Part shown: positions 23,208 through 41,289 of the stretch, piece after piece | Position numbering within the stretch: position 1 is the first letter of the stretch | Layout of the letters: the number at the start of each line of letters is the position of its first letter | Assembly (NCBI GenBank): GCA_949130485.1 | Contig: OX422185.1 | Location: 2,154,304 to 2,218,303, forward strand | Direction: 5' to 3' | DNA length: 64,000 nucleotides | DNA from: Agelas oroides | Taxonomy: Eukaryota; Porifera; Demospongiae; Agelasida; Agelasidae | Made by a program: the position numbers and the translations under genes | Notes under the pieces: model-generated | The model's input: the letters and a program-made list of their open reading frames with translations, nothing else | What the model was told of the DNA's origin: nothing | Database searches by the model: none

Positions 23208-23292
23208 CCCTCGTTCCCAGGCCCTGCCCAGCTTCCCATCGCTTGCAGTATGGAAAAGCTGGGCGGGGCCTAGGAACTGGGCTAGCAGAGTA
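23208..23292. mobile_element. TAGCCTCG-family mini-element, 85 bp
   Basis: Hairpin of CCTCGTTCCCAGGCCCTGCC against GGGCGGGGCCTAGGAACTGG, with GTCTGGGTT repeated on both sides (23199-23207, 23293-23301). Confidence 0.8.
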
Positions 23293-23344: not shown

Positions 23345-23600
23345 AATTCTCTTGATTGGACCCAGTCAATAATAACTAGGTCTTCCAAAAATTGTTCGAA
23401 CTAGCTCCAAGTACTTTTCAAACGGAAGTCCAGTGCTCACTGTGTAACCAGCTGCTCTTAAATAGCTTGTCCTGTGCCAAACAGTTATGGGTTTGGTGTA
23501 ACGTCATATTAGCGTATTCATTGATCTATGAATACACTTATATATTCATGATTAGCCTTAATTGCTGTGCTGATCTTACAGATACACAAGCGGACCAAGG
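23345..23600 (+). repeat. Upstream module of the hammerhead repeat, copy 1
   Basis: Starts GGACCCAGTCAATAATAACT, then AGGTCTTCCAAAAATTGTT, AACGTCATATTAGCGTATTC and ATATTCATGATTAGCCTTAA. The same ordered blocks recur at 27345, 32270, 34325 and 37740. The matching ribozyme part lies at 24739, separated by the tRNA-like foldback. Confidence 0.85.
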
Positions 23601-23832
23601 GCGTAGCTAGTATATAGCAATGAGGCACAGGAGGCACCTCCTCGTTTTTACTGTGACCGACAAGTTACTTCATTTACTTCATTTTATCTGATGGTTCTGA
23701 GCAAATGAGGGCCACAACAAGTGTAAAAGGTCTTTGCCTACAAACTGAGCCTGAATTATAATGCACAAATAGTGTTGAAATGAGACAGTAAGTGAAAGGA
23801 TGTGAGTTATTTGATAGCAAAAAAAAGACATT

Positions 23833-24470
23833 GAGATCCAGCCAGGATTTGAACCTGGGTCTTCTGAAGTCTAGTCAGATGCTCTTACCAACTGAGCCAC
23901 TGGAGCTCTGGCATTGGAGCAGAGGATAGATGGTATTATATCCATAGACACATTTCGAATCTCAGGCTGGATCTCTCAATCTGTAGGCTTTACTCTGCAT
24001 TGGTGAGTACTGAGTGCTCAGTTCGTAAGACGATCTGACTAGAAATCAGAAGACCCAGGTTCAAATCCTGGCTGGATCTCAATGTCTTTTTCGCCATCAA
24101 ATAACTCTGTAAATAAAACATCCTTTTCACAATTTGCCTTAGGCTGGCAAAAACACCTTTGGAAGGAGAAATGTTTCCGGTCAGCCCCTGCGGGGTTCCG
24201 GCGGCACATGCAAAGTGTCTGCTGATACCCAGTTTGCTGGGGCTGCAGCATAAAGTACTTCAGTACTCACCAATGCAGAGTAAAGCCTACAGATTGAGAG
24301 ATCCAGCCTGAGATTCGAAATGGATAAATACGATCTATCCTCTGCTCCAATGCCAGAGCTCCAGTGGCTCAGTTGGTAAGAGCATGTCTGACTAGAATTC
24401 AAAAGACCCAGGTTCAAATCTAGAGAGCCTGGGGACGAGGCTAGTTCAAATGTCTGGCTGGATCTCAATG
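23833..24470. repeat. Foldback made of two inverted tRNA-like SINEs
   Basis: Arms 23833-24005 and 24257-24470 are inverted copies, each ending in a tRNA-like sequence. On the left arm (minus strand, 23908-23833) the D-arm GGCTCAGTTGGTAAGAGC and the T-arm CCAGGTTCAAATCCTGG are clear, and the acceptor arms pair with one mismatch. The loop holds a third partial copy (24026-24083, plus). Acceptor mismatches and repetition argue against functional tRNAs. Confidence 0.85.
24420..24443. mobile_element. 24-bp micro-insertion with TAGCCTCG-family end
   Basis: CTAGAGAGCCTGGGGACGAG plus GCTA interrupts the T-arm of the tRNA-like repeat, between direct repeats GTTCAAAT (24412-24419 and 24444-24451). The uninterrupted version is seen in the other arm. 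Confidence 0.85.
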
Positions 24471-24738
24471 TCTTTTTTTGCCAAGACATTCACAGTAAAA
24501 AGGTCTTTGTCTACAAACTGAGCCTGAATTACGAAACAAGACAATGAGTACATTCATAGTAAAAATTTTGCCACACACTTCGCATGTGGATATTATTAGC
24601 TCCTCATTCTCATAATCCTAGCTACGCTCTTGGAGATGCTATGTCTGAGGAGCTTTACCCACGGTATGGTTAAGGCCAGCCACCTGATTGCATTTAGTGC
24701 ATAAGACATAGAGCAGTCCCCATCTCCCGGTTACCCAA

Positions 24739-24782
24739 GTGCAGCTGATGGGCCCTGGTATTAGCTGAAACACACCCAGCAC
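24739..24782 (+). ncRNA. Hammerhead ribozyme motif, decayed (copy 1)
   Basis: Stem I GTGCAG, box CTGATGG, loop TGGTATT, box TGAAA. The cleavage triplet is changed to ACC, so it is probably inactive. Confidence 0.5.
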
Positions 24783-24784
24783 AG

Positions 24785-25100
24785 CGGGTGACTTTGTATA
24801 ACATCTTGGCCTGCCGTTTTTTTAGGGAGGTGTGGTTCACTGATTTTTCATATGTACAGTCATTCAAATTTTCTGTGTTCCATATGAAATCCCATGGAAC
24901 ATGTTCCTGTGTACACTGATTGTAGGGCTACAGTTTACAGTGGAGAGAGGAATAGACCACGATTTCCATGGGATTCCTCTCGTGATTCACAAGCAATTCA
25001 CAAGTTCAAATGGTTGTATGAGTCATAAGAAGCAATTTTAACTAGCCAGATGACTTCAGCTTCGCTGAAAACCCTATAATGACTTCATCCAAGCACTTTC
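24785..25100 (+). repeat. Downstream module of the hammerhead repeat
   Basis: Reads GGGTGACTTTG, AACATCTTGGCCTGCC, AGGGAGGTGTGGTTCACTGA, TTTTCTGTGTTCCATATG and ends in a block ACTAGCCAGATGACTTCAGC. It is closely repeated at 29690-30000. Confidence 0.8.
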
Positions 25101-25306
25101 TGGTTGTGTATTTAGAGGACACACAAGCTGTATAAATCATGATTACTATACTTAGCTACATGTTCCCTTTGTCATGTGCTAACAGTAATGTTTTACAGAG
25201 CACTCCGCTCCAATACAATACAAAAGAACTTGAGCTCATAGAGTTTCACCTACAGTTAATCAGATAACCAGTTAACTGTTAGTTATTTGTAACCAGTTTT
25301 TTTAGT

Positions 25307-25430
25307 TATAGTTATAGCACAGGTGCCAGGGATTTATGGCAGTAAACAGACTGAGTCCAAGGGCGTAGCCCGAGGAGGAGGTTTGTTTACTACAGCCATA
25401 AATCCCTGGCTACCTGTGCTATAGTTATCC
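25307..25430. mobile_element. MITE-like inverted repeat
   Basis: TATAGCACAGGTGCCAGGGA against TCCCTGGCTACCTGTGCTAT, with GGATTTATGG continuing the arm; arms of about 40 bp. Confidence 0.75.
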
Positions 25431-26025
25431 CACCTGATTGGTCCTTTGTTGTTATTACTGTAAACACAGCTGTACATGTGCAAATGTTTACAGTAACTTC
25501 AACATTCTTTACTGTCAAAGTAAAATGATGTAAAATCTGTACTAATAGTCTGATAATGTAGTAGACTATAAACTAAAAATACATGGAGAGGGAATTATGA
25601 GCCATCATTTCCCTTGTACCTACCCCTCAGGGAGGGAAATTATCACAGTAAACCCCCACCTGTTGTATAGGCAAAACTATACCAGGTGGGATATATGTGT
25701 GCGAAGCTTAGGCCATGCATGTGCATGTAGTCATAATAGGCTCAGGCATAGCATTAGTCCTGTGGATAATTTTTTGCAAATATTTTCACACTGTACTGCT
25801 CAAAGTGCAAAGTTCGAAGTCGGTTAAACAAAAGTAGGTATGCACCATAAATAAAGGTACATCAGTCATCCATGCTCAAACAAGGGATGTTCACTCCTAC
25901 AGGTATGAGTGACCACCGTTATGAAGGGCCAACTAAGATACTCAGACAACGCTCTTTTCCGCAGAAAATCAAAAGAATGGTCCTCAAACAGATATTGCTC
26001 AGGGCATCTTGCCTCACGCTGGAAA

Positions 26026-26353
26026 TAAATGAATTTTGATGTTATGAGGCAAAATAGAGGAAAGGAATTTAGAGTGAGAAAAACCACTCAGCATGGGTTC
26101 TTTCCTGATGGAATTTTCCGGTCAACCCCTAACGGAGTTCTGACGGTACATACTGAGTGGCTGCCAGATGTGTGACTGAGGCATTCAGTGCCATCTGTGC
26201 AGTACATGTAGAGGATTGTGAGGGCTGATGGTTGTCCAGCTGTTGTGGCTCAGTGGCAGAGCACTGGTGGCTCAAGCCAGAGGTGTCCTGGGTTCGACTC
26301 CCGGCAACTGCAGGCTTTTTCTCTACTTCGCCTCATAACATCAAAATTCATTT
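26026..26353. repeat. Inverted repeat around a tRNA-like sequence
   Basis: AATGAATTTTGATGTTATGA at 26026 is inverted at about 26334-26353. Inside, 26226-26297 is tRNA-like (GGCTCAGTGGCAGAGC and GGGTTCGACTCCCGG). The anticodon loop lacks T33 and the acceptor stem has mismatches, so it is a SINE head rather than a tRNA gene. Confidence 0.7.
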
Positions 26354-26611
26354 ATCAAACAGATATTGTTGCCCATTAGTCTCATCCCCAGACCTCATCT
26401 GGCACGTATATAGTTTACAGTATAAAAGTGATCCGCGCTGGGGTTGGTTTGGTTTACATACGCCCAAAGAAACAGCTGAACAGCACCAGACCCTCTCCCC
26501 TCGGGTGGGGCCTGGAAATGTGAATAACATCATTACTGTAATGAGAAAAAGGGGAGGAAGAACATGTGACTTCATTGTTTTGTGGAACCTCTCCAATGTG
26601 TACTAAAAATA

Positions 26612-26981
26612 CCGTATAGTGGGAAATTTTCGCTGGGTGCCAATTTTCGCTGACAGACCTGCTTCCGCGAAAATAAAAACTGCAAAAAAAATGAACTAAG
26701 ATGGAAATTGATGACGTCATTATGTGCGTACGTCAAGTACTGATGTGAACATGATGGTTCTCTACAGTCTGTCTGCCCTCTAAATGGTTGCTGCAAAGAA
26801 GAATCAGCCTCCTACTGTAGAAAATGCCGTAAAAGGCGCTCCAAAGATGTTGCATCAGCCGGTAGGGGTGTGGTCAGAGCGTCCCGTATTCCGTGAAAAT
26901 AAAAAACGTGAAAATTTCTTCTGAAGAGCCTGGACGCTTTTCCGTGAAAATTTGCACCAGCGAAAATTTCCCACTGTACGG
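26612..26981. mobile_element. Mariner-type MITE, 370 bp
   Basis: CCGTATAGTGGGAAATTTTC and, inverted, CCGTACAGTGGGAAATTTTC, flanked by TA on both sides. Inner repeats of GCGAAAATT. Non-coding. Confidence 0.85.
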
Positions 26982-27243
26982 TAGAATGTTGGCATCAAAG
27001 TATGAATTTCAAAGTATGCTTTGCAGTTGATTCTGCAGTTAAACTCTTTCTTCCATCCCTTTCCTCTTATGCGATGTTGCCTCTTTGTTCCGGTCCTTTC
27101 TGATTACATCATGCTTACATGAGAAGACACCAGACTCTCCCCACCTTCAAGACTCCAGTGCGGGAGCCTGGGAAAGGATAAAGAAAGGGGAGTCTGGCTG
27201 ATACAGTACATCCTCTCACCATGGGACTATGGAGGAGGGTAGG

Positions 27244-27294
27244 TAGCCTCGTCCCTAACCCCCATTTTTGAGGAGAGAGCCTGGGACGAGACTA
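27244..27294. mobile_element. TAGCCTCG-family mini-element, 51 bp
   Basis: Starts TAGCCTCGTCCC, ends GGGACGAGACTA, flanked by GAGGGTAGG (27235-27243, 27295-27303), a perfect 9-bp duplication. Confidence 0.85.
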
Positions 27295-27344
27295 GAGGGT
27301 AGGGGTGGTCTGGGTCTTGTCTACAATGTCACCTTATGTTCACC

Positions 27345-27640
27345 TGATTGGACCCAGTCAATAACTAGGTCTTCCAAAAATTGTTTACACTAACTAGTGC
27401 GACTAAACTTCCACAATATTCGACTCAACCACCTAAATATCCGTTCTTAAATACCCTGGCCTTTTCGGAACAATTGTGGGTTTGTGTGACGTCATATTAG
27501 CATATTCATTGCTCTATGAATTCTATTACATATTCATAGTTAGCCTTAATTACTGTACAGCTGCACACCTAGCCTCGTTCCCAGGCACTCGGGAACGAGG
27601 CTACTGCACACCCAAGAGGAGCTTCTACCCAATTCCAATG
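27345..27640 (+). repeat. Upstream module of the hammerhead repeat, copy 2
   Basis: Same ordered blocks as at 23345, with TGTGACGTCATATTAGCATA. It contains the 34-bp insertion at 27570. Confidence 0.85.
27570..27603. mobile_element. 34-bp TAGCCTCG-family element
   Basis: 13-bp perfect inverted ends (TAGCCTCGTTCCC / GGGAACGAGGCTA) around an 8-bp loop, flanked by the perfect 9-bp duplication CTGCACACC (27561-27569, 27604-27612). It is nearly nothing but termini. Confidence 0.92.
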
Positions 27641-27714
27641 TACTGTTAAGGTCAGCCACCTGATTGCATTTTGTGCATGAGATAAAGAGGAATCCCCATC
27701 TCCTGGTCGCTCCA

Positions 27715-27758
27715 GTGCAGCTGATGATGCCTGGTATTGGGTGAAATGCGTCCTGCAC
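27715..27758 (+). ncRNA. Hammerhead ribozyme motif (copy 2)
   Basis: Stem I GTGCAG/CTGCAC pairs perfectly. Box CTGATGA, box GAAA and triplet GTC before the cleavage point are intact. The outer pairs of stem II are mismatched, so activity is doubtful. Confidence 0.65.
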
Positions 27759-27997
27759 AGTGGGTGACTTTGCATATAACATCTAGGCCTGCCTTTTTCT
27801 TGAGGGAGATGTGATTGCTCAAATTTCCTGCATGCTTACATGAGAAGAGATACCAGACTCTCCTCACCTTCACGACTCCAGTGCGGTGGAGCCTGGCTGA
27901 TATAGTACAAACTCTCACAATGGGACTATGGAGGAGGGGAGGGGAGGTGCGGCGAGCGTGAAGTGTGAGGCGCAAAGGCTCAGATGTTTAACACGCT

Positions 27998-28230
27998 CCA
28001 GACCTAACAGTCAGACCTTAGCCTAAGTCAAAGTCAAAGAGAAAGGTGAGAAATAAAGAAGAGAAAATAAAGAGGGGAAGAAAGGACAGTGACTCAGGGA
28101 GGGACTCAAACCCACAACCTGGCAAATGGCCTGCCATGCTCTAACCAACTGAGCTACTGAGTCACTTGGCAACTCAGTAGCCAAATTCGAATACTTAAGG
28201 CTGAGCTTCCAGGGATCCAGCCGAAGCCGT
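27998..28230 (-). repeat. tRNA-derived SINE
   Basis: The minus strand has the tRNA-like head 28163-28090 (GTAGCTCAGTTGGTTAGAGC, then GGTTGTGGGTTTGAGTCC) and a tail of about 90 bp matching the copy at 39350-39590. The anticodon loop lacks T33. Confidence 0.8.
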
Positions 28231-28418
28231 TAATTAATTAACCCTTTAACACCTAAATTTGTTTCACTAGAGACTACTTTTACAGTGCTAGTGCCTACAG
28301 CTGCAGAGACGTTATGCTCAAAGAGCTTCTACATTACTGTATACATGTACCCACTGAATAGACAAGACCAGCCACCTCACTGCATTTTGTGCCATTCCCC
28401 ATGCATCATGCCACCCCA

Positions 28419-28462
28419 TTGCAGCTGGTGAGGCCTGGTATTGTACGAAACGTGTCCGGCAC
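28419..28462 (+). ncRNA. Hammerhead ribozyme motif, decayed (copy 3)
   Basis: Box 1 is CTGGTGA (one change); GAAA and GTGTC are kept; stem I and stem II pair only partly. Confidence 0.5.
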
Positions 28463-28639
28463 AGTGGGTAACTTTGCATAACATCTAGTACTGGTTCAGT
28501 ACTGGTACATTTTCTGTGTTCCACTCGGAATCCATGGAACATGCAGTCTATTGTGTGTCAATAGAGGTCAGCAGGAGGGCAGAATTTCCCTGCTAGCTAC
28601 AGAGTATGCTGTGTAACCTGGCAACAAAACTGGCAGGGC

Positions 28640-28860
28640 TTCATTTGGGGGGTGGGGGCCGAGCGCGAAGCGCGAGGACGGGCGTAGAACGCGAGGCGGA
28701 GAGATGCTCCCGACGCTAGCGGGAGGCTGGCGAGCTTCAGCGTTGAGGGGCGAGGAAGCAGGGCGTTTCTGCGAAGTAGCTGGCGTGTCCATCGTTGCTG
28801 CGGGCGGTCCGCGTTCGCGGTAGACACTTCAACAGTAGACAGCCGAGTAGCTTAAATAAA
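28640..28860. other. GC-rich island without recognised gene
   Basis: Dense in GCGCGAAGCGCGAGG-type words, unlike the AT-rich surroundings. It follows a repeat (28558-28640) that also precedes the 74-bp array end at 33690. No protein family is recognised in any frame. Confidence 0.5.
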
Positions 28861-28929
28861 CTTAATCAATATTTCGACTACTGTGAGGTGAGAGCTCCTA
28901 CCCCGGGGGATCAATCAGGCCAGGGACTT

Positions 28930-29565
28930 GGTTTCTAGCCTAGATGCTCATGTTACTTAGGGAGGCCTATGTTAGAGTACTGGGAATTAACACCAAAGGG
29001 GAGGACTGTGTTAAGTGCCCTGGTCCAATGTACTTCTTGAGATGGGAGCTGGTTAGGGGGCAGTGTTCAAGGGGCAGGATATCGTGTGGGTCTCGAAGCT
29101 GTGTCCTCTGGAGCTGAAGTGGCGGTAGATGGGCCAGGTGCTCTTCCTCTTCTCCTTTGCTGCAGATCTATGGTGGCCAAAGCGATTTAGTAGAGATTTA
29201 GAAGTTTGTCCTACATACATTTTAGAACATTTAGAACAAATGATGCAGTAGATGAGGCTAGTACTTTTACAGGTGAAGGTATCAGTGAGGTAGATGGGTT
29301 GATGTGTAATGCTAGCATGGATGATGTTGTAGGAAAGTAGTTTAGGGCAGGTGAGACAAAGTGGGTGATTACATGGTTTTACTCTCTTAACGGTTGTAGT
29401 TTATCTGCAGTGGAATGTCAGCTGTAGGGGGAGGGGGTCTTTCAAGTGTCTTAGCAGAGACTAAGTGGTTGGAGACTGCCTTTTCTCGTCTGAAGCAAAG
29501 CTGTGTAGTAGAGAAGAGTTGTGTGAGGTTTCTGTCCTTAGAGATAAGGTCCCAATGAGGTTAAG
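28930..29565 (-). mobile_element. Penelope-like element remnant with GIY-YIG domain
   Basis: The minus strand reads an RT C-terminus (DLISKDRNLTQLFSTTQ, CFRREKAVSNHLVSAK), then a CNHPLCLTC zinc-type linker, then TSLIYCIICSKCSKMYVGQT followed by LLNRFGHHRSA, the GIY-YIG endonuclease signature. Frameshifts and a stop between the two halves show decay. GIY-YIG fused to an RT is diagnostic of endonuclease-positive Penelope-like elements. Confidence 0.8.
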
Positions 29566-29629
29566 GCCAGCCACCTGATTACATTTAGTGCATGAGACAT
29601 AGAGCAGTCCCCATCTCCTGGTTACCCCA

Positions 29630-29672
29630 GCGCAGCTGATGAGGCCTGGATTAACTGAAAAACATCCAGCGC
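29630..29672 (+). ncRNA. Hammerhead ribozyme motif, decayed (copy 4)
   Basis: CTGATGAGGCC and CTGAAAA are kept, but the triplet is ATC and stem I is mismatched. It lies directly beside the Penelope-like remnant but on the opposite strand. Confidence 0.5.
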
Positions 29673-29689
29673 AGTTGGTGACTTTGCAA

Positions 29690-30000
29690 AACATCTAGTC
29701 CTGCCGTTTTTATTAGGGAGGCGTGGTTCACTGATATTTCATATGTACATTCAAATTTTCTGTGTTCCATACGGGAACATGTTCCTGTGTACATTGATTG
29801 TAGGGCTACAGTTTACAGTGGAGAGAGAGAAAAAAAGACCACGTGTTCCATGGGATTCCTCTCGTAATTCACCTCAAGTTGAACTAGCTATTCATAAGTT
29901 CAAATGGTTGTATGAGTCATAAGAAGCAATTTTGACTAGCCAGATGACTTAAGCTTAGCCAAAAACCTTATCTGACTTCTCCATGACAGACAAATACTGC
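29690..30000 (+). repeat. Downstream module of the hammerhead repeat
   Basis: Long match to 24785-25100, including GTGTACATTGATTGTAGGGC and ATGGTTGTATGAGTCATAAG. Confidence 0.85.
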
Positions 30001-30435
30001 AGCAGACAACTCACAGACAGTATACATGGTGGTTAAGGTCACTTCAGGTAAGAGCACAAATGATACTCAGAGATTCAGCTCATGATTTGGGTGTGAAGCT
30101 TAGTCCACGTGTGTGTAGCCATAATAGCCTCAGGCCTAGCATTAGTCCTGTGGATGATTTTTATAACATTTCAATTATTTCCACACTGTCCTGTTCAAAG
30201 TGCAAAGTTCAAAGTTGGTTATACAAAAGTAGGTATGCATGGTAAAGGTATATCAGTCATCCACGCTCAATAGGTGAAACAAGGGATGGTCACTCCCACA
30301 GGTGTGAAGGGAAGACACTCAGACAACACTCTTTTCTGCAGAAAATCAAAAGAATGGTCCATAAAATGCTCAAACAGATATTGTTGTCTAACTGTGGCCT
30401 TTCGCAATGAAGGAGGAGGACAGTACATGATCACC

Positions 30436-31094
30436 TAGCCTCGTACCCAGGCCACGTGGGAGGAGGGAAAAGTGACCTGGTATCCACTGTTTGCACATGC
30501 GCGAATGATTCTGGAAATCTTCCGCGAATGAGTCCGATTATGGACAAGTTACACGTGGTTGTTATGCAGAGAAATAACCAAACTAGATATACGGCTTGCA
30601 GTGTGGCAGCTGTGTTTACGCGGCGATGGCTTCCATTATCAGAGACACAAGGGGTGACACGACAAGGACTACACTACAACCACCGCCGGTTCCACCGTCA
30701 CTGTGCTTGTAGTTGAAAACAAACGGCAGAGTCTCGTAGCAGATGGACTTACCAAATCCCGTGGGTAGCCACAGGAATACGTCTTTACCATCGTAGATAC
30801 ATAATTTTGATCGCATCCAGCTGCTCTGCTTTCAACGTGAAATATCTCCCTTTCCAATACAACAAAGAGCGAACTTGAGCGCTTTATCAAAGTCCTCGCT
30901 TTTAACTGCCATATTCGCGGGGTAAGCTCGAGACGGACGTGCTTCGGAGCTATACGCCAGTATATGGTAAAGATTAACGGTTCGTAAACGATGGTATACG
31001 ATACCCCATGAAATCATGGGTTTTTTCGCGCATGCGCAAACAGTGGATACCAGGCCACTTTTCCCTCCTCCCACGTGGCCTGGGTACGAGGCTA
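30436..31094. mobile_element. TAGCCTCG-family element, 659 bp, carrying a helicase fragment
   Basis: Inverted repeats of about 70 bp (TAGCCTCGTACCCAGGCCAC on both ends, two mismatches) and the perfect 9-bp duplication ATGATCACC (30427-30435, 31095-31103). The interior holds a RecQ-like gene fragment. Long inverted ends, 9-bp duplications and captured gene pieces resemble Pack-MULEs. Confidence 0.92.
30620..30925 (-). pseudogene. RecQ-type helicase fragment captured by a transposon
   Basis: The minus strand reads a lead-in DFDKALKFALCCIGKGDIS, then FTLKAEQLDAIK (motif 0), KDVFLWLPTGFGKSICYETL (motif I, Walker A with GFGKS) and VVLVVSPLVSLI (motif Ia). There are two frame changes between these blocks. 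The DEAH box and everything after it are missing. In intact RecQ enzymes this part binds ATP and starts the 3'-5' unwinding core; here only the first lobe edge was captured and it cannot function. Confidence 0.8.
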
Positions 31095-31263
31095 ATGATC
31101 ACCTTACAGTTATTATTATTCACAGACCCCACCAGCGAGGAGAGATTCTGTTGACATTCAGACCCCACCTTTCTTGGCACAAGCACAAAGTAGTTATCAG
31201 TTCGTAACAATGTGTACATACATAGTCCAAAGAAACAGCTGAACATCACCAGACCCTCCCCCC

Positions 31264-31657
31264 TAGTCTCATTTCCAGACTGCATTTTTCGCGCCCGCCA
31301 GAAAAATAGGTCAACTGCCTATTCCATTTTCGTCCAAGTGCGCCGGAATGCTGGCGCATTGTTGTTTTCTAATTTAATGCTTGACGTCATCAAAGGTTGC
31401 ATTCCACATTGCATGCAAATGATCTACTAGTGAAATGGACACTGATCGGGCAACCCTAGCTGCCGTGTATAGGTTAGACTATTCTATCTTTCGAAAGGAG
31501 CACAAATAGGATGTCTCGGAGTTTGCTGTTTACTAGAGAGTTTTTGAAACAGTTGACGTGACGTCACGGTGATTTGAAAATATTGGAACCAAAACGGTAT
31601 AGGCCGTTTACCAGACTATTTTCCTGCTCGACGAAAAGTAGTCTGGGCACGAGACTA
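31264..31657. mobile_element. TAGTCTCG-subfamily element, 394 bp
   Basis: Starts TAGTCTCATTTCCAGACT, ends AGTCTGGGCACGAGACTA; flanks CCTCCCCCC and CCTCTCCAC agree at 7 of 9. Confidence 0.65.
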
Positions 31658-32269
31658 CCTCTCCACTTGGGTGGGGCCTTGGGAATGTGACTAACATCAT
31701 TACTGTAATAAGCATATGAGAAAAAGAACATGTACAGGGTTTTGCAGAATCTTTGCAACGCTTCTTGGAATGCATAAAGCGAAACCGTAGTGACTTCCTT
31801 ATATGGAAGTCAAAGTTGCACCGCTGGGGCTATGGTTATGTAATATGACTCACCCTTTGTGACTATGTAGGAGGTAACATTTTGTTCACAGCCACTTAAT
31901 TATTCAATCAAACACAGCTGGGCACTTCAACGCCTTGCGCTTGCGTGTTGCAAAGATTCTGCAAAACCCTGTAAACTTCATTGTTTTGTGAAACCATCAG
32001 AATCTCCAATGTGTACTAAAAATAGAATGTTGGTAGAAACAAAGTATGAATTTGCTTTGCATTAGATTGTGCAGTCACTACAGCAAATATTGAGAGTTAC
32101 ACACTCTTTCCCCTTACATGAGAAAAGATACCAGACTCTCCCCACCTTCACAACTCCGTTGCGGGGGAGCCTGGGAAAGACTAAGGAAAGGGGAGTCTGA
32201 TATAGTAAATCCCCTCACCATGGGACCATGGAGGAGGGGAGGGGATGGGGGTCTGGGTCTTGCCTACCT

Positions 32270-32480
32270 GATCGGACCCAGTCAATAACTAGGTCTTCCA
32301 AAAATTGTTTTCCACCAATTACAAATGGACTTCTCTTCCGCAAGTGTTCTACTCACCACATAATGGCTGTTCTTAAATACCTTGGCTTGTTCTTTCCAAT
32401 TATGGGTTTTGGTGACGTCATTACAGCATATTCATGAGCTATGAATGCTATTACATATTCATTGGTCTACAGCTGCACAA
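32270..32480 (+). repeat. Upstream module of the hammerhead repeat, copy 3
   Basis: Same ordered blocks (GGACCCAGTCAATAACTAGG, GGTGACGTCATTACAGCATA). It leads into the ribozyme at 32608 and the usual downstream block. Confidence 0.85.
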
Positions 32481-32607
32481 AGAGGCGTTACATTCAAGCA
32501 GCTTCTACATTACTGTAGCTATACATGTACCCACTGAAATAGATAAGACCAGCTACCTCACTACATTTTGTGCATGAGATAGCACTCTCCATCTTCTTGT
32601 CACCCCA

Positions 32608-32650
32608 GCGCAGCTGATGAGGCCTGGTATTGTACGAAACGCGTCATGGG
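32608..32650 (+). ncRNA. Hammerhead ribozyme motif (copy 5)
   Basis: CTGATGA, GAAA and GCGTC are all intact; the 3' strand of stem I is lost, so it could not close alone. Confidence 0.55.
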
Positions 32651-33002
32651 GTAACTTTGTATAACATCTAGGCCTAGCTCATTGATTGTTCATGCATTCA
32701 AATTTTCCATATGGAATCCCATGGAACATGCAGTCCATTAATAGCATGGTTTCGAGTGCAATTTGGGATTAATAGCACGAGTGAATGGCTATTAATTGCA
32801 CGAGGCGAAGCAGAGTGCAATTATGCCAATCATGAGTGTACAAGAAAACATGCTATTGATTGCTAATCATAAACCTTCCAAGTTGACAGTACACTACAAT
32901 AAGTATGAGTATGTATGAAATAGGCAAGTTTATAGTATACAAGTTTACAAGTTTATAGTACATCAGATAGTTTACAGCAAATTGTTGGTACTTACAAGTC
33001 AC

Positions 33003-33180
33003 TGACCAATCAGTGGGCTATTACACTTTTGCACTGTTGACAGTCTGTTTTTCAACCAATCAGAGAGCTATTACACTTTTTCAATGCTGACAGTCTGTTT
33101 TTCAACCAATCAGAGAGCTATTACACTTTTTGCACTGTTGTTCAGCCAATCAGTGAGCTATTACACTTTTGCACTGTTTA
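33003..33180 (+). repeat. About 50-bp tandem repeat with CCAATCA boxes
   Basis: Four imperfect units of ACCAATCAGNGNGCTATTAC followed by ACTTTTGCACTGTTGACAGT. Confidence 0.85.
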
Positions 33181-33269
33181 CATTTACAAGAAAAACATGT
33201 TGCAACACTATTTGGCATTTATTTCACTGTTGTTAATGGAGCTTTACTATGGACTGTGATATAGTCATA

Positions 33270-33713
33270 TGATTAGTGTAAGAACTATGCATGACAACCC
33301 GGCAGTGTTCAGAATCAATAGAGGTCAGCAGGAGGGCAGCAGTCCATTAGTGTAAGAACTATGCATGACAACCCGGCAGTGTTCAGAATCAATAGAGGTC
33401 AGCAGGAGGGCAGCAGTCCATTAGTGTAAGAACTATGCATGACAACCCGGCAGTGTTCAGAATCAATAGAGGTCAGCAGGAGGGCAGCAGTCCATTTGTG
33501 TAAGAACTATGCATGACAACCCGGCAGTGTTCAGAATCAATAGAGGTCAGCATGAGGGCAGCAGTCCATTTGTGTAAGAACTATGCATGAAAACCCGGCA
33601 GTGTTCAGAATCAATAGAGGTCAGCAGGAGGGCAGCAGTCCATTTGTGTAAGAACTATGCATGACAACCCGGCAGTGTTCAGAATCAATAGGTCAGCAGG
33701 AAGGCAGACTTTC
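33270..33713 (+). repeat. 74-bp tandem repeat, six copies
   Basis: Units begin at 33270, 33344, 33418, 33492, 33566 and 33640 (GTGTAAGAACTATGCATGAC) with few changes. The last unit runs into a block also present once at 28558-28640, so the array grew out of a dispersed repeat. Confidence 0.95.
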
Positions 33714-33945
33714 CCTGCAGAGTATGCTGTAACCTGGTAATGAAACCGGTGAAGTCTTAGTTAGCCAAACAATGCTGCTTTGCGTTGCTTGCTCACGCTT
33801 GCCTGAAAATGTTATACATTTACACTAGTACCCCTTAGCCTCATTCCCAACCCCTTAGCCTCATTCCCAGATTTAATCTCGCAGTTGCAAGGTAAAATCT
33901 AGGTGTGGCCTGGGAACGAGCACCCTCACACTATGGGCTCGTTGC

Positions 33946-34285
33946 TAGCCTCGTTCCCAGGCCGTTCCCGCCTCCAGTTTTTGATCGCTTCCAGTATAAA
34001 AACGGAGGGGGAAGGCCTGGGAGAAAGAGTCACGTGTGTGATGTCAGGTAGACGTGAGGGGGGGCGGTGCCCGATCGTTGTAATTCACAAACTTTGCGTT
34101 GATCAGCCTCGAGTCTACCATACGACGAGCTGTATTGACGCTGGCTTTCGAATGTTACAGTCTCAAGTTCTTGGACAAGATATTACAAGAAGGACCTCCA
34201 GATTCTTCGTCGGGCACCTCCCCCCTCCGTTTTTATACTGGAAGCGATCAAAAACTGGAGGCGGAACGGCCTAGGAACGAGGCTA
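33946..34285. mobile_element. TAGCCTCG-family element, 340 bp
   Basis: Inverted ends of about 75 bp (TAGCCTCGTTCCCAGGCCGT against ACGGCCTAGGAACGAGGCTA). Flanks only roughly agree. A short open stretch inside is not recognised. Confidence 0.8.
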
Positions 34286-34324
34286 AGCTATTGCTATGGA
34301 CAGTGGTTCAAGAAAGGTCACCTT

Positions 34325-34570
34325 ACAATTGGACCCAGTACAATAACTAGGTCTTCCAAAAATTGTTTTTTACAACCTAAACATCTTTCTTTACTACAAG
34401 AATGTGGCTCATTGCACGTAACCGCTGTTCTTAAATAGTTTGGCTTGTTCCTAACAATTGTGGGTTTGTGTGACGTCAGATATAGCGTATTCATTGAGCT
34501 ATGAATGCAATTACATATTCATAGCTGGCCTTAATTACTGTGCGGATCTACAGCTGCACTCCATGCACAG
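34325..34570 (+). repeat. Upstream module of the hammerhead repeat, copy 4
   Basis: Same blocks: GGACCCAGTACAATAACTAG, GTGTGACGTCAGATATAGCG, TACATATTCATAGCTGGCCT. Confidence 0.8.
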
Positions 34571-34599
34571 GGTCGTAGCAAGCTATTGTAGCCAAAGTG

Positions 34600-35900
34600 T
34601 ACATACTGCATGTAGTATCTAGGGGGGTCTAAGGGGCATGCTTCCCCAGGAAAACTTTTGTTAAATTAGGCACTAGAAGATCCCTTCTGAGGCCATTTTT
34701 AGGCCCCGGATCTCATAGGTTCTGCAATTCATAGCAAACAGAATTTCAATACTTGCTACACGTACTCTCTGTGAGGTAGTGATCGCAGATTGCCCGTAAC
34801 TTAGTGCAATTAGTAGCTACATATGGAAGGATGCCCCCATAGCAAAAAAAATGTGCTCGGAGATCGCTTCATAGCTGTGATCATAGCCATAAGGATTCTG
34901 GTCCACATTCAGTACCTGTTCTCAGGCTCCTGCCCAGCTCTCCGTCGTTGGCAGTACGTACTGAAAACGATGGAAAGCTGGACAAGGCTTGGGAAACGAG
35001 GCTAGTGATTTCAGACTCCACGAGTGAACTTCACGGCTTTGTCACAGTAAGAAATGGCCATCGAGTAAACTGAAATGGCTGAAAATCCTAACGCAACGTT
35101 AAATTTTTGTCAGTGAAATTTGCACGATGGTGGCAGCCGTTTTCTCAGACGGCTCGGCTTACTAGTTCTTATACGTACGACTTCACGTGTTTTCAAAGTG
35201 TGCATGTGCACGTTTAGTCCGCGAAAAAGTGGTCGGGCCAAACCCGACCAACCCGACCGCTTGCTATGGCCATGCCAGTGAATGTATGATGGATGTATGA
35301 TGGATGTAAGATGTTGATTGTTCATACATTCAAATTTTCTGTGTTCCATATGGAATCCCTGTGTGCACAAAAGGATGGTATGTTTGTGTGAGGAAAGTGT
35401 TTTGCCACTGATCGGTAAATCTGGCTATTGGACTACTGCTTGTCATTAAATTTTTGCTGTGATTTGTTGGACTAACACACGGTAGAATAGAAATTTTATT
35501 GACATCGTTTCGAACAGACTGTGCCAATCTTCTTCAGGTCGTTAAAATTGGATACTGATCCTAGCCTAGCAAATAACTTCGAAGCTGTTCGCGCATATTA
35601 GATTCAGCTCACAATTAGTTTGTGAAGCTTAGTCCATGCGTGTGTAGCCATAGTAGTTGCCCTGACTGACAGCAGACAGTCATAAACCCTGCTGCTATTC
35701 ATGATTGGTGTGCCATGACCTAAATCCATACAATGCATGTGCTTCTCGATCAGGCTCGCTCCATGCTGATGAACACAGTTGTCATTTAGGACCACCCCTT
35801 GAAAGCCAGTTGTCCCCTCTTGATAGTCCCTCCCCCATCACTAGAAGCTAATATACGCTACGTAAGATCTTTGAACAAATGACAGCTGCACAAAGAACAG
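34600..35900. other. No gene recognised
   Basis: Holds a TAGCCTCG-type hairpin remnant at 34915-35005 and fragments of the hammerhead repeat's downstream module (35340-35360, 35600-35660). Confidence 0.5.
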
Positions 35901-35995
35901 CTGCACGAAGAGACGGTGCTTTCGAGGAGTCTCGACCGACTTTTGAATAAGGCCAGCCATCTGACTGCATTCTGGGCATGAGATAGCAGTCCCCA

Positions 35996-36039
35996 GCACA
36001 GCTGATGAGGCCTGGTATTGGCCGAAACACGTCCTGCGC
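35996..36039 (+). ncRNA. Hammerhead ribozyme motif, best preserved (copy 6)
   Basis: Stem I 35996-36001 pairs with 36034-36039 (one mismatch). Core box CTGATGA is at 36002-36008. Stem II GGCC/GGCC is perfect with loop TGGTATT. Box GAAA is at 36024-36027, a minimal stem III follows, and the triplet GTC ends at 36033 where cleavage is expected. All invariant core bases are present. The very short stem III is as described for ribozymes of Penelope-like elements and retrozymes, which may work as dimers. Confidence 0.8.
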
Positions 36040-36469
36040 AGTGGGTGACTTTGCATAACATCTAGGCCTGTTTTATAAGGGAGATGTGGGATTGTTCATG
36101 TACATGTACATGTTGTATTTATCCAGTCCATGTCAATTTTCAATGACAATCGTTTCTGTTCCATACCATGGTTGTAGTAATTGAATTCTGGCATGGTTTT
36201 ACTATTACTTGAGCCTGAATTGTCAATTATTACTGGTTCACAACCATCAAAGTTACATACAATATTATAACTAAATTAAGAAATAATTATGCTCCCAGAT
36301 CCCCCTAGATATTGGTGTTTTGACATTTAAAGCACCATCTCCCTTACTTTGACATGCTCTGCTTATGCATTTGCTAAATAAAAACCTGATGAAGCCTATA
36401 GAAAGTAGTCGTGTATCAAGTGGGGGAGCACCAACACCAGCTGGCACATCAGCGTTCATTATGTGGAAA

Positions 36470-36735
36470 TTTTACGCACATACATTACGTGCAAAGTTAA
36501 ACATAATGTGACAGTTGGGTACTTCAATCGCATTGCTGTGTTTAAAGTGCCGTATCGCTGAACTTCTGTTAAGGGTGAGACTCATACATGCTTCGTAGGT
36601 TCATGAATATCTATTGACTGGACAAAGTGAGTATGAGCCCCACCCTTAACGAAAGTTTAGTGATATGACGCTTTGAACGCAGCAATGGGATCGAAATATG
36701 TGACGGAATAATCTTCGATTTATACACAGGACTGC
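36470..36735. repeat. Palindromic MITE-like repeat
   Basis: Left TAAGGGTGAGACTCATACAT and right TGAGTATGAGCCCCACCCTT, with outer arms ACATAATGTGACAG and ATATGTGACGGAATAAT. Related to 15545-15765. Confidence 0.7.
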
Positions 36736-37305
36736 CATTGCGATGAGGCATTTATGCCAAAGTGAGCTACTGTTTTTGGTGGACAAGCTTGGTCTTCAGG
36801 GGAGTATGGGCTAGCTGTTGCTATATCCTCGTCCCCAGGCCCCGCCCCAAAAATCGGGAAAGGGGCCTGGTGTCACTTGCAAACTTTCCTGTATGTGCTG
36901 AATCAGTATGTTATGCAACAAATACATCCCTTACGTGATCACGTCGTAGCCTGGTGTCACTTGAAAAAATTCCCGTATGTCAGCAGTCTTAATTTGGAGT
37001 AGAGGAATCACGTTCGTCCATTACCAATTACTAAATTCTTGACACGGGAAAGTAGTAGACCTGTTCCAAGACCATTTGAAAATGGGAACGAGGCTAGCAT
37101 AAACTTCTAATTTCAGAAACTTGAGCGTAGTTATGCTTGCTAGGCCACTACTCTTGCCTCACAAGACTTGCCTATAGTCGCTCCGTAGCAAGATCTGTTT
37201 ATCTACATGTACTCGCGTCAACAGTAGCTGGCTCCTTTCCTGATATTTGGGTGGGACCTGGGGACGAGGCTACTGTTGCTGTGTAGGGTGGCTTGAGGTC
37301 AAGGT

Positions 37306-37701
37306 TAGCCTTGTTCCCAGGCCCCGCCCAGCTTTCCGTCGCTTGCAGTACGGAAAAGCGTGGAGAGCCTGGTATCTTTTCTCACGTGAGCATGACGTAA
37401 TCAGAAAATGGCGAAAATTTACTGAACTACCAGGCTGCGTTTCGCGTATTGTTCAACTGACTACACGCTCAACGCTCGGTATATACGACAATCGCCCTCC
37501 GCTAGCTAGATACGTGCGGTAAGTTACCTGCTACGTTGGCTATTTTTCCTGTTCTGGGCCTTGTGCACCCACGCACAATTAAACCCTTTCTACCATCCTT
37601 TCTATCCTGACGTCACTCATGTGAGAAAAGATACCAGGCCCTCTCCTGCTTTTCTGTACTAATAGTGACGGAAAGCTGGGTGGGGCCTGGGAACAAGGCT
37701 A
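37306..37701. mobile_element. TAGCCTCG-family element, 396 bp
   Basis: Inverted ends of about 95 bp starting TAGCCTTGTTCCCAGGCCCC, perfect 9-bp duplication GGTCAAGGT (37297-37305, 37702-37710). Non-coding interior shared with 21440-21665. Confidence 0.93.
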
Positions 37702-37739
37702 GGTCAAGGTCACTTCAAGACTACAATATCACGTTACAT

Positions 37740-37960
37740 TTGACCCAGTCAATAACTAGGTCTTCCAAAAATTGATTTTCCTTACAGTGGATAATACTCG
37801 ACACGTCTGTCAGCCACTTCACCTCATAACGGCTGTTCTTAAATACCCTGGCTTCTTCGTAGCAATTGTGGGTTTGTGCGACGTCATATTAGTATATTCA
37901 TTGGTCTATGAATACCATTACATATTCATAGTTGGGCTTAATTACTGCTTGCAGCTGCAT
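37740..37960 (+). repeat. Upstream module of the hammerhead repeat, copy 5
   Basis: Same blocks, with GTGCGACGTCATATTAGTAT; leads into the ribozyme at 38049. Confidence 0.85.
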
Positions 37961-38048
37961 GCTATGTTTGAGGAGCTTCCACCAGTCAGCAACCTGATTG
38001 CACTTTGTGCATGAGATATAGAGCAGTCCCCCTCTCCTGGTCACCCCA

Positions 38049-38092
38049 GTGCAGCTGATGGGCCTCGAATTGGCTAAAAGACGTTCTGCACA
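38049..38092 (+). ncRNA. Hammerhead ribozyme motif, decayed (copy 7)
   Basis: Stem I GTGCAG/CTGCAC is perfect, but box 1 reads CTGATGG, box 2 is changed and the triplet is GTT. Confidence 0.5.
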
Positions 38093-38237
38093 GTGGGTGA
38101 CTTTGCATAACATCTAGGCCTGCCGTTTTCTTCAGGGAGATATGATTGTTCAAATTTCTGTGATCCATACAGAACCCAATGGAACATGTGGTCCACCCCC
38201 TTGTGTACAGTGGAGAGACGAGTTACATGGGATTCCT

Positions 38238-38533
38238 TAGTCTCGTCCCCAGACCTCACCTTTTCACAAGGAGAAACGGTCTGGTGCACACTTTTGCGAC
38301 AGTGTCACCTAGCAACGTTCCAAACATTTTATGCCAAACCTGCTCATAAAAGGTACAGATATTCAAGTAGATTTTACAAATTTTACTGTTGTAAGGGAAG
38401 TACTACATAATAATTACCGACCTCGCAATCTCATCGGTCCTTACCACTTTTTGGGTAATAAGCCAAAGAAATTCGACTTTGTTCACCAGACCGTTTCTCG
38501 CCGGGAGGCACGCATGGGCTGTGGACGAGACTA
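38238..38533. mobile_element. TAGTCTCG-subfamily element, 296 bp
   Basis: TAGTCTCGTCCCCAGACC against a right end of TGTGGACGAGACTA. Flanks GGGATTCCT and GGGATCCAT agree at 7 of 9. Confidence 0.8.
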
Positions 38534-38666
38534 GGGATCCATTCATGACTAACCCAGAGTTGAACTGGCGTAATTTACAAGTTTAGCTTGAGAGGTGGGC
38601 CCTACAGTACGTATGTCCTAATGATCAGGCACCGCCCCCATGTGTCTACTGTACCTTCTGTTACTC

Positions 38667-38914
38667 TATCAAGCCAAACCATCTTTCCCCCTCCAGAAAA
38701 GTGAGAGAAGGTCTAGCAGATGTTATTTGTTAACAGCTTGTTTAATCTGCAACCCCACACTGCAACCAGTATTAATCTTACATACTGAAGCCAAGATGTT
38801 GTCAAAATTGAACAGTAAGATCTGATTGGTCAGCAATTCATGAATACTAGTAACATCTGCTAGACCCTCTCTCACTTTTCTGGAGGTGAGAGAGGGTCTG
38901 GCTTGATAACCATC
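38667..38914. mobile_element. TIR element, 248 bp
   Basis: TATCAAGCCAAACC against GGTCTGGCTTGATA, with inner arms CTCCAGAAAAGTGAGAGA and AACATCTGCTAGACC; inverted arms of about 60 bp. Confidence 0.8.
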
Positions 38915-39349
38915 TGTCTACTAGCACTACCTGATCTCACTGCAAATGACAGAGATCTAGGTCTTCACTCTCCATATATTATCTCAGTATTGGTAGCGGC
39001 AAAGGCCTGGGAATGAGGCTATTAATGTACCACCCATCCATGAACACAAGCATAAACAGACAAGCCATGGGACCCTGGGTTCAATTCCTGGCTTTTCACA
39101 CTTCTCTATTTTCATAAGATTAAACCATTTCCAGCAAAGGCTACTACTAGGAAGATGCTGCATCATTCTGGTGCCCCCACACATGTTGACAATGGAGTTT
39201 GTTTTTTTTCCAGCATGAGTGGCTACAAGACATAGCCTAAGTGGTCGGTCGTATGTGAGCAGTCTAAGCTTGTTCATGGAAGTTACCCGAAGCAAACTCG
39301 GCAAACTCCGCTGTCATGCATTGTAGTATGACTCGCTTGTCACTCATAG

Positions 39350-39590
39350 CATCGGCTGGATCCCTGGCAGCTCAGCCTTGCGTCAGTATTCGAACTCAGC
39401 CACTAAGGTGCCAAATGACTCGGTAGCTCAGTTGGGTAGAGCATGGCAGGCCATTTGCCAGGTCGCGGGTTCGAATCCCTCCCTGGGTCACTGTCGTTTA
39501 TCTTTCTCTTTCTTTCACATCTTGATTTCTCACCTTTCTTTCTGACTTGGACCAGGTTAAGGTCTGACCGTCAGGTCCGGAACATGTTTG
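39350..39590 (+). repeat. tRNA-derived SINE
   Basis: Head 39417-39490 (GTAGCTCAGTTGGGTAGAGC; GCGGGTTCGAATCCCTCCCT) with pairing acceptor arms but no T33. The upstream and tail parts match the copy at 27998-28230. The intact A- and B-box-like sequences could serve RNA polymerase III. Confidence 0.8.
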
Positions 39591-39911
39591 TGTGCTGAAA
39601 TTGCATTCAGTCATCAGTCTCTTTCATGCTGACGCTACATTCTGGCAGTAGCCCTTCACTGTTCAGGCTGAGCTCAATCTTTATGACATGTTATAATGCT
39701 TGTTGATTTGAAATTTACGGTAAATGGTCGGTCCAAGCAAGCATACACACACACACATGCACAATGCAGTCACGCTAGCATGGGGCTCGATCAGGCTGGC
39801 CCCAATAAGCATGTGGCAGACATAAGGAGGGAAGGAGAAATGCAGGAAGAAAAGATGAAACGAGAGGAGACAGAGGAAGCGGGAGAGACAGCTGGATGAG
39901 ATGTGCATACC

Positions 39912-40020
39912 TGATCTGCAAAATATCTTTCTCTCTCTTCCAAAGTGGTGTGGGTAGATTAGAGTTCCTCAGAAAGGACCACGTACTTTGTTCTGGGAGG
40001 GAAGACGAGAGGGAGATAAT
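39912..40020 (-). pseudogene. Duplicate of mrpl1 exon 2
   Basis: Matches 21105-21019 and its flanks. It reads [14 protein letters not shown] with a stop before it and a small deletion at the 3' end of the exon, so it is dead. Confidence 0.88.
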
Positions 40021-40129
40021 TGGTGTGAGCTTACACACTACATATAGTAAACTATTCGTGCAGAAAGTGAGTGTTAAAAAGGCAGTCTTGGAACAAGACT
40101 AGCAATGCTTTAGGTGTGTAGGTTGCCCT

Positions 40130-40438
40130 TAGTCTCGCAAGCCACACCCTTTGCAAAGAGGAAGGTCTGGTGACTCTGGTCACGCTGCAGCCATTGAGTT
40201 GTCGCCGAGGAACGCAATTATCGAACATAGCAGTTAGAAAATAAGATCTGACTTCCGCTAAACATGTTGTGATGTAATTGCTACTCCATGACAACGGATG
40301 CGATCTACGAAGAGCATAGATCTGATTAGTCACATCAAGTTTCTGCCATGGCGACAACTCAATGGTTGCAGCGTGACCAGATCCTTCCTTTCTGCGAAAG
40401 GTGTGGCTTAGGTTCTAAGTGCTACTCCATGACAACTA
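40130..40438. mobile_element. TAGTCTCG-subfamily element, 309 bp
   Basis: Flanked by the perfect 9-bp duplication GGTTGCCCT (40121-40129, 40439-40447). The arms include AAGCCACACCYTT and CAACTCAATGGYTGCAGCGT. It separates the two duplicated mrpl1 exons. Confidence 0.85.
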
Positions 40439-40934
40439 GGTTGCCCTATGATTGTAGCTACTCACATAGCCAGAGACCAAGTAACTCTGCAGACATGAAA
40501 TGGCATTTTATGATACGCAGAATTTTCCGTGGGGATTCCCAAGGAAACACTCAAATGCTTCGCGCGTAAGGAAGAGCTATAGCGGTTGATCTAGAGCGCA
40601 CCTGGCAGTATCCACTGAGTGAGTTTCGTCCCAAACAAACGAAAGCTGTTTATGTAAATCGAGTTGACCTTTCACTATGGGCCACAATGGCAGTCGGTAT
40701 GATTATGTCATTCACGTAGCACTAATTTGCTACCTCGCGTGTATCACTAATTACTAGTTTCAACCTCCTCTGTGTCTGGCCTGTGAGACCAAGTAACTCT
40801 GCAGACATGATAAATGAATGTGTTTGAGTCTTGTTAGGTCTGCCTTTCGCCACTACCTAGCACACAGGCTGTGATCCCTCCACGGATCTAAAATGTATGC
40901 ATGAGATAGCAATCCCCATCTCCCGGTCACCCCA

Positions 40935-41080
40935 GTGCAGCTGATAAGTAGCCTTGTTCCCAGGCTCTCCTCTCGCCCCAACGAAAAATTAAAAAAACCC
41001 TCCGTTTTTTTTTTTTTGTCACAGTGAGGGGAGAGCCTGGGAACGAGGCTAGCTTATAAGGCCTGCTATTGGCCCTGCAC
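40935..41080 (+). ncRNA. Hammerhead ribozyme motif split by a transposon (copy 8)
   Basis: GTGCAGCTGATAAG stops at 40948; the rest (GGCCTGCTATTGGCCCTGCA) resumes after the inserted element and its target duplication. Box 1 is broken, so the copy is dead. Confidence 0.6.
40949..41051. mobile_element. TAGCCTCG-family element, 103 bp
   Basis: TAGCCTTGTTCCCAGGCTCT against GAGCCTGGGAACGAGGCTA; flanks GCTGATAAG and GCTTATAAG agree at 8 of 9. Confidence 0.88.
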
Positions 41081-41289
41081 AGTGGGTGACTTTGCATAAC
41101 ATCTAGGACTGCCTTTTTTCAGGGAGATGTGGTTCATTGATTGTTCATGCATGTACACACATTTCTACAGGCTAACCCACTCCAAACTATGTCGGGCAGA
41201 AGCAGACTGCCTGCTAGTATTGCAGTGTAACACAAACCAATACATTCTTCCCCCTTTGCTTTGCACACTTCTAAATTTACCGTACAACA

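Follow-up and report, generated by a model that had tools for sequence, protein, structure and literature searches.

The window analysed here is a 64,000-nt stretch of the genome of the sponge Agelas oroides (contig OX422185.1, forward strand), to whose numbering all positions refer unless another locus is named. It carries eight related repeat copies, numbered 1 to 8 along the window, all on the + strand and with a hammerhead ribozyme-like core at one common internal site, in agreement with a preliminary description that had reported at least eight copies with a hammerhead at one internal place. Judged by their sequences, these repeats are degenerate, 5'-truncated relics of the 3' end of a retrotransposon; every copy is 5'-truncated, and none of the eight retains a full set of stems. 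Copy 6 (35856–36099) is the youngest-looking fragment, and its hammerhead (35996–36039) has every invariant core base, as had been described, but also an A·C mismatch in stem I. When copy 6 was compared with the window by Blast, its relatives were all on the + strand, and one extra match, to its flank, was inverted; a repeat search recovered these families as well.

Two further copies keep the fixed bases, copy 2 (27647–27816; hammerhead 27715–27758) and copy 5 (32543–32675; hammerhead 32608–32645), and correspond to core-pattern matches at C3:2182021 and C3:2186914, respectively. Stem I of copy 2 pairs (GTGCAG/CTGCAC) and its stem II is broken, and copy 5 has a deletion of the 3' strand of stem I. 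The remaining five copies have lost core bases or stems. Copy 1 (24647–24851), a 3' fragment of the retrotransposon, has CTGATGG and lacks GTC (hammerhead 24739–24782); copy 3 (28364–28496) has CTGGTGA (hammerhead 28419–28462); copy 4 (29562–29742) has a 1-nt deletion, a weak stem II, and ATC in place of GTC (hammerhead 29630–29672); and copy 7 (37987–38147) has TAAA in place of GAAA (hammerhead 38049–38091). In copy 8 (40888–41148), the hammerhead at 40935–40948 continues to 41080 and is disrupted by an inverted-repeat insert at 40949–41051. The copies other than copy 6 had been described as differing by point changes, a description corrected here for copies 2 and 5, whose fixed bases are intact.

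Across 30 oriented loci, the repeat has variable 5' break points and one common 3' end, which 27 of them share down to the final one or two bases; at L009, L032, and L034 the alignment ends short of it. The longest loci extend into an open reading frame (ORF). A protein search of the genome returned 62 matches, seven of which have a 1012-codon frame (in one of them an internal stop interrupts the match). Three of these loci were fetched (L048, L049, and L050); in each, a partial unit precedes a full 3558-nt unit, and both units carry a complete hammerhead. The unit encodes a protein of 992 aa and carries the hammerhead in its 3' untranslated region (UTR); the window copies align within the last 270 nt of the 446-nt 3' UTR of the intact element. 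The protein has an N-terminal GIY-YIG domain (Pfam, residues 128–217; 24.8 bits, above the cut-off of 22.6), followed by a CxC motif and, towards the C-terminus, a reverse transcriptase (RVT_1, residues 632–842), whose 24.4 bits fall short of the cut-off of 29.6. All 17 aligned proteins have the CxC cysteines C429 and C431, and the catalytic YIDD and GIPMGT are conserved across the 17 relatives. We found 292 related proteins among 7993 scored candidates; of 30 sampled, 29 have GIY-YIG and 23 have RVT_1 at E values up to 0.01.

The GIY-YIG domain above cut-off and the copies in pseudo-LTR tandems or partial tandems are Penelope-like features, and we regard it as very probable, given these sequences, that the repeat is the tail of a Penelope-like element with an N-terminal endonuclease. 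The parent element appears to be autonomous, recently active, and still intact elsewhere in the genome. Earlier, the choice between a Penelope-like element and an animal retrozyme had been left open; an ORF with endonuclease and reverse transcriptase on the same unit as the hammerhead favours the former and not the latter. One copy of the element (L042, C1:14220050-14229950) lies inside a long array of ~1.2-kb repeats in both orientations. Protein relatives also occur in five records titled bacterial (L051–L055; a planctomycete and a gammaproteobacterial metagenome-assembled genome, mussel symbionts), which are probably contaminating eukaryotic DNA, and none were confirmed in the viral contigs in which they were sought.

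Naiad elements, attributed to Craig et al. 2021, reportedly have an N-terminal endonuclease and a CxC motif in the linker, form pseudo-LTR tandems with microsatellite-like flanks, and are said to be without canonical hammerheads. The element described here resembles them, as so reported, in its N-terminal GIY-YIG, its CxC before the reverse transcriptase, its pseudo-LTR tandems, and its microsatellite-like flanks, and differs from them in having a complete minimal type I hammerhead. Because this hammerhead is present in L041 and L048–L050, we call the element Naiad-type and not Naiad. In the literature searched, which did not include the original Naiad description, we found no report of a Naiad element with a hammerhead. 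Hammerheads in Penelope-like elements are already known, but one in a member with an N-terminal endonuclease conflicts with that reported description.

Minimal type I hammerheads are established for Penelope-like elements (PMC7229834, PMC6155905, PMC7761336, and PMC6431247, each in part), where their role is called unknown in PMC7761336, and Penelope copies are described in tandem and truncated forms (PMC3846280, in part). The hammerhead studied here is like the minimal Penelope-associated hammerheads of Cervera and de la Pena 2014 and Lunse et al. 2017 (via parts of PMC7761336 and PMC6155905) in being of type I and having a stem III that is minimal or absent, and unlike them in that its host element has permuted domains. 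For PAc of Anolis, internal initiation and a protein-assisted hammerhead are described in part of PMC11167929. PAc shares with our element the tandem units, the minimal hammerhead near the unit junction, and insert 3' ends that lie within the unit RNA. In the same part of that source, PAc has a C-terminal endonuclease and a hammerhead that overlaps the ORF start, whereas the Agelas element has an N-terminal endonuclease and a hammerhead in the 3' UTR, some 200 nt ahead of the next ORF.

The intact hammerhead has a stem I of GCGCAG/CUGCGC, extended by CCCA/UGGG past a 2-nt bulge, followed by CUGAUGA, stem II (GGCC-UGGUAUU-GGCC), GAAA, a stem III of 2 bp that is self-complementary (ACGCGU), and the cleavage triplet GUC. 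Our own descriptor matched at seven of the seven expected places in L041, L048, L049, and L050, where the type I core (CUGANGA, GAAA, UH) has stems I and II of 6 and 4 bp, and revealed no further hammerhead elsewhere within these loci. At 4/3/2 bp it had no match in the window; two separate sets of 100 first-order random 64-kb sequences, one searched at 4/3/2 bp and the other at 6/4/2 bp, likewise gave 0 matches each. A 35-nt core pattern with up to two mismatches has 1025 matches in the genome compared with 0 for the reversed pattern. The preliminary description was right that the family is dispersed and that its hammerhead is type I-like, with a minimal stem III, and right to point to Penelope-like elements. 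It seems quite probable that the motif can act as a self-cleaving ribozyme, singly or in pairs.

Conservation was assessed with eight old copies (L056–L063) that have 69–89% protein identity to the young element. Seven of them reach the C-terminus, and the match of L061 stops at residue 630; a ninth locus at ≤89% identity, C12:6364041, was left out (its match stops at residue 520). Four of the eight were already known to match the core pattern when selected. Between old and young copies, the 3' UTR has changed by 14.5% in its first 250 nt and by 2.3% in its last 196 nt, and the UTR of L062 is nearly identical to that of the young element throughout. The 12 core bases have no changes (0/96 in the eight old copies), nor does loop II (0/56), and outside CpG the hammerhead has 1/272 changes compared with 26/1168 in the rest of the 196-nt module. 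Since the 196-nt module is conserved as a whole, conservation of the hammerhead is not decisive, and we rejected it as proof of function when taken alone. Conservation of the entire module points to a ribozyme and also to a region used for binding or priming.

Tandem copies were found at four of 13 long copies examined (L048, L049, L050, and C1:22.297 Mb), with a period of 3553–3558 nt; among ten further long copies inspected on the 5' side, L085 (the C1:22.297 Mb locus) alone has an upstream unit with a hammerhead. Of six non-tandem long copies, five have their 5' start within a range from 54 nt upstream to 80 nt downstream of the unit start, and one starts at unit position 473. Within a locus the repeats are nearly identical, with differences of 0/2065 (L048), 0/1118 (L049, which is cut by the stretch edge), 1/2280 (L050), and 1/414 (C1:22.297 Mb), whereas the full units of L048, L049, and L050 have 4–9 substitutions between loci. 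Relative to L049 and L050, both repeats at C1:22.297 Mb carry the same three substitutions and the same 5-nt deletion.

The predicted cut lies 72 nt upstream of the usual 3' end, TTCAT, and with the cut so near the 3' end the hammerhead in tandem copies also precedes the next ORF. The inserts include these 72 nt, which excludes, for these insertions, a linear template trimmed by both hammerheads; the template could have been circular, multimeric, or left uncleaved on the 3' side. A pattern for the 3' end, which requires a T eleven bases further, has 807 genome matches with up to one mismatch; 100 were listed, with 85 distinct flanks. In these 85 flanks, a majority or plurality at each successive position (78, 81, 84, 52, and 44%) matches GCATA, with which the next unit begins. 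We rejected this as proof of a circular template, as a target preference accounts for it equally. Short target-site repeats are present in some copies (9 bp in L016), and many copies have none by a simple test.

The window also contains five gene-like modules on the - strand, located at 23359–23582 (module 1), 27351–27570 (module 2), 32275–32435 (module 3), 34332–34555 (module 4), and 37742–37962 (module 5). Their layout comprises TGACGTCA (exact in modules 2, 3, and 4), a block ACCCACAA..GTTAGGAACAAGCC, TATTTAAG or TATATAAG, and, after a divergent stretch of ~60–70 nt, AATTTTTGGA, which we take to be Sm-site-like, and a hairpin; module 5 has TGACGTCG. The common promoter includes a TATA box, the 5' part of the RNA is variable, and AATTTTTGGAAGACC precedes the 3' hairpin. 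Module 1 comprises a promoter-like block, TATTTAAG, a variable stretch, an Sm-like site, and a 3' hairpin (23359–23393); its TATTTAAG is at the position equivalent to that in the other modules, and an earlier TATATAAG lies at distance 151. The 3' ends of modules 2 to 5 are at 27351–27382, 32275–32306, 34332–34364, and 37742–37773, and the 33-nt 3' end is identical in three of the five modules. The Rfam model SmY scores 19.2–24.5 bits on the modules (cut-off 39), no Rfam family exceeds its cut-off on them, and the likeness to SmY, spliced-leader, and U7-like RNAs is in layout only. A literature search on Sm-type RNAs returned nothing useful for this family.

The 3' end pattern of the modules has 79 genome matches (control, 0), 73 of which are on C3, 63 of these in 4.1–5.34 Mb. 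The 62 distinct hairpins covary in part: of the inner pairs, pair 4 is formed in 55/58 compared with 48.4 after shuffling (1/2000 as high) and pair 5 in 47/58 compared with 37.6 (0/2000 as high); pair 6 has no support (513/2000 shuffles as high), and pair 3 is uninformative because it is never broken. Six genomic loci with the module promoter were fetched; five of them (L089, L090, L091, L093, and L094) have the module 3' end at a similar distance, and L092 lacks it. From their sequence and strand, the modules form a separate family of gene-like units, opposite in strand to the hammerhead repeat. They correspond to what had been described as a ~250-bp upstream module common to the repeat copies, a view that did not hold: the window has eight copies but five modules, and the genome-wide distribution differs. 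A first look at the genome gave 2545 candidates for the hammerhead repeat (40 scored) compared with 27 for the module. Of the 27 TGACGTCA module matches, 4 fall within the window, 15 within C3 4.1–5.4 Mb, and 8 elsewhere, a distribution unlike that of the hammerhead repeat, and we dropped the module as part of that repeat; the TGACGTCA site assigned to it is exact in three of five modules. C3 4.1–5.4 Mb holds most of the small-RNA genes. A preference of the element for these genes was also rejected, as only 2 of 100 listed hammerhead matches (1025 in total; list to C3 6.97 Mb) lie in that interval.

Hammerhead repeats are locally dense, with eight copies in 18 kb compared with ~1 per 250 kb genome-wide by the core pattern. 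On the reference UTR, copies 2–5 start at 272–274, copy 1 at 249, copy 7 at 279, and copy 6 at 181. Because copies 2–5 have one 5' edge within 3 nt, we suggest that one or a few old truncated insertions beside a small-RNA gene were probably multiplied by local duplication; this is less clear for copies 1, 7, and 8, and copy 6 is probably a separate, later insertion. A 5' flank of ~190–230 bp common to copies 2, 5, and 7 is the small-RNA module. The sole long flank shared beyond the element's 3' end is 246 bp common to copies 1 and 4. Copies 3 and 5 have 21 bp in common beyond that end and 72 bp in common in the flank comparison.

Other features are interspersed in this array. The insert of copy 8 is 103 bp long, has inverted repeats with TAGCCTTGTTCCCAGGC ends and near-identical flanks (AGCTGATAAG / AGCTTATAAG), and looks like a small DNA transposon; similar termini occur at 23209–23278, 37306–37359, and 37648–37701. 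A 74-bp unit is present in six tandem copies at 33198–33765, the middle ones 97–99% alike. ARAGORN identified tRNA-like genes for Ser (23833–24091), Glu (26239–26312), and Trp (28089–28163 and 39417–39491), some of which recur as inverted partial copies.

Overall, we consider it probable that the window repeats derive from the 3'-terminal module (~196 nt) of a Penelope-like element whose RNA is processed by the ribozyme, and that they were multiplied by local duplication. Transcripts of tandem loci would carry two hammerheads, and the short palindromic stem III would favour hammerheads acting in pairs; according to the title of Lunse et al. 2017, minimal Penelope-associated hammerheads cleave as dimers. 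Cleavage would release unit-length RNA. Since the inserts hold 72 nt beyond the cut, the template would either have been ligated back into a circle or have escaped cutting on its 3' side. Reverse transcription would begin internally near TTCAT, next to GCATA-like DNA; an early stop would leave truncated copies, and passing the start again would produce tandems. That the template is a 3.56-kb RNA circle is conceivable, if rather doubtful. In such a scheme, paired minimal hammerheads would excise unit-length RNA from tandem transcripts and the ends would be re-joined; reverse transcription would start within the circle and might go round repeatedly, and each such insert would re-create a tandem with two ribozymes.

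Several results weigh against ribozyme processing. The covariance-model check proposed in the preliminary description gave alignments to Rfam Hammerhead_1 but scores below its cut-off of 34: the intact copy aligns to the full model at 24.2 bits (E 0.00043 in a 141-base search), and copy 6 aligns at exactly 35996–36039 with 17.7 bits (E 0.057, also in a 141-base search). Rfam searches of the whole window at the gathering cut-off and of 22 kb at E values up to 10 gave no hammerhead match. The hammerhead fold (-22.0 kcal/mol without stem III) is not the predicted minimum (-23.2), and folding z-scores of -1.31 for the intact copy and -0.01 for copy 6 do not stand out. Compensatory stem changes, the other proposed check, are present but weak. 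In 43 distinct sequences, which include L064–L075 (picked by hammerhead pattern match and left out of the conservation test), 63/626 stem cells are broken and 12 double changes occur, compared with 363–471 and 1–5 when the register is slid by 1–3. With shuffled 3' letters, the means are 67.8 broken cells and 7.0 double changes, and 45 and 23 of 1000 shuffles, respectively, do at least as well as the observed values. The excess of 12 over 7.0 double changes is inflated by relatedness, and most of these are C-G to T-A at one pair, which is CpG on both strands; we dropped covariation as proof of the hammerhead. Within the 196-nt module, the hammerhead has no extra conservation (8/352 changes compared with 28/1216 in the rest). 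The descriptor finds no hammerhead in L051–L055, of which only L051 has most of the ORF and the 3' flank. On the 5' side, six of the 13 long copies are without an upstream unit, and three have no match in the fetched stretch and are uninformative. For the PAc element, hammerhead mutants are without effect on insertion in vitro (PMC11167929, in part).

This last result also bears on a different reading of the same element, in which ordinary RNA read through from a tandem locus serves as template, with no circle and with the hammerhead irrelevant to insertion. We put its chances at a little under even. It does not require a ligation step, PAc inserted in vitro from unprocessed RNA with hammerhead mutants performing equally (PMC11167929, in part), and the five non-tandem long copies starting at -54 to +80 nt of the unit start look as if many RNAs begin there. 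Units agree better within a tandem locus than between loci, and a circle would account directly for this. Such agreement would also follow from a parent tandem that was recent and homogeneous, however, and the numbers are small. It is unlikely, in our view, that the hammerhead is an inactive relic in a 196-nt module kept because the protein binds and primes there. The extent of conservation over the whole module, the non-minimal fold, and the Rfam score under cut-off are as expected of a relic; against it, the 12 core bases and loop II are unchanged in eight of eight old copies (four of them known pattern matches at selection), and the youngest copies have all stems intact.

A non-autonomous animal retrozyme, that is, short tandem repeats spreading as a small circular RNA, is very improbable. 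Animal retrozymes are ~170–400 nt and non-autonomous, have type I hammerheads in tandem units, and are described alongside Penelope-like elements (PMC7229834, in part), and the type I hammerhead and numerous short copies of the Agelas repeat are in keeping with this. Unlike a retrozyme, the window family is the tail of an autonomous element: its hammerhead sits in a 3.56-kb unit with a 992-aa ORF, and no neighbour distance is ≤500 bp (0/97) among the 100 listed of 1025 matches. We rejected a retrozyme identity on that ORF and on the absence of short spacing among the matches listed; moreover, a separate retrozyme-like family in the genome has no sizeable similarity to the 3.56-kb unit. We give almost no credence to the idea that the hammerhead and the TGACGTCA module are one functional unit duplicated together in the window. 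A hammerhead copy does lie 25–110 bp from the module end at three of five modules, but on the opposite strand, and the hammerhead copies decay while the 33-nt module 3' end is identical in three of five modules. Of the six other promoter loci, only L089 has an element end beside the gene, on the other side, and none of the six has an intact hammerhead at a fixed spacing beside the gene.

The genome also harbours a second hammerhead family, with 29 Rfam Hammerhead_1 matches above cut-off (73 candidates scored), many of them in exact 606-bp tandem units. Sites of this family are L095 (C5:11180500-11185400), C3:504862-506678, and C9:62604-68086. It is retrozyme-like, yet its unit is larger than the 170–400 nt of animal retrozymes (PMC7229834, in part).

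With intact ORFs and hammerheads, a sharp 3' end, and comparable tandem units, the Naiad-type element makes the questions of a ribozyme-processed template and of a circle testable. If elements with an N-terminal endonuclease are truly thought to be hammerhead-free, as is reportedly the case, the element shows that the ribozyme was retained or re-gained in them, and the curated 34-bit cut-off misses such motifs. The family of Sm-site RNA-like genes, in which the 5' parts vary and the pattern matches number 79, may be equally important. If the circle is the template, the element would be a protein-coding counterpart of retrozymes, and this would explain the purpose of the hammerheads in Penelope-like elements.

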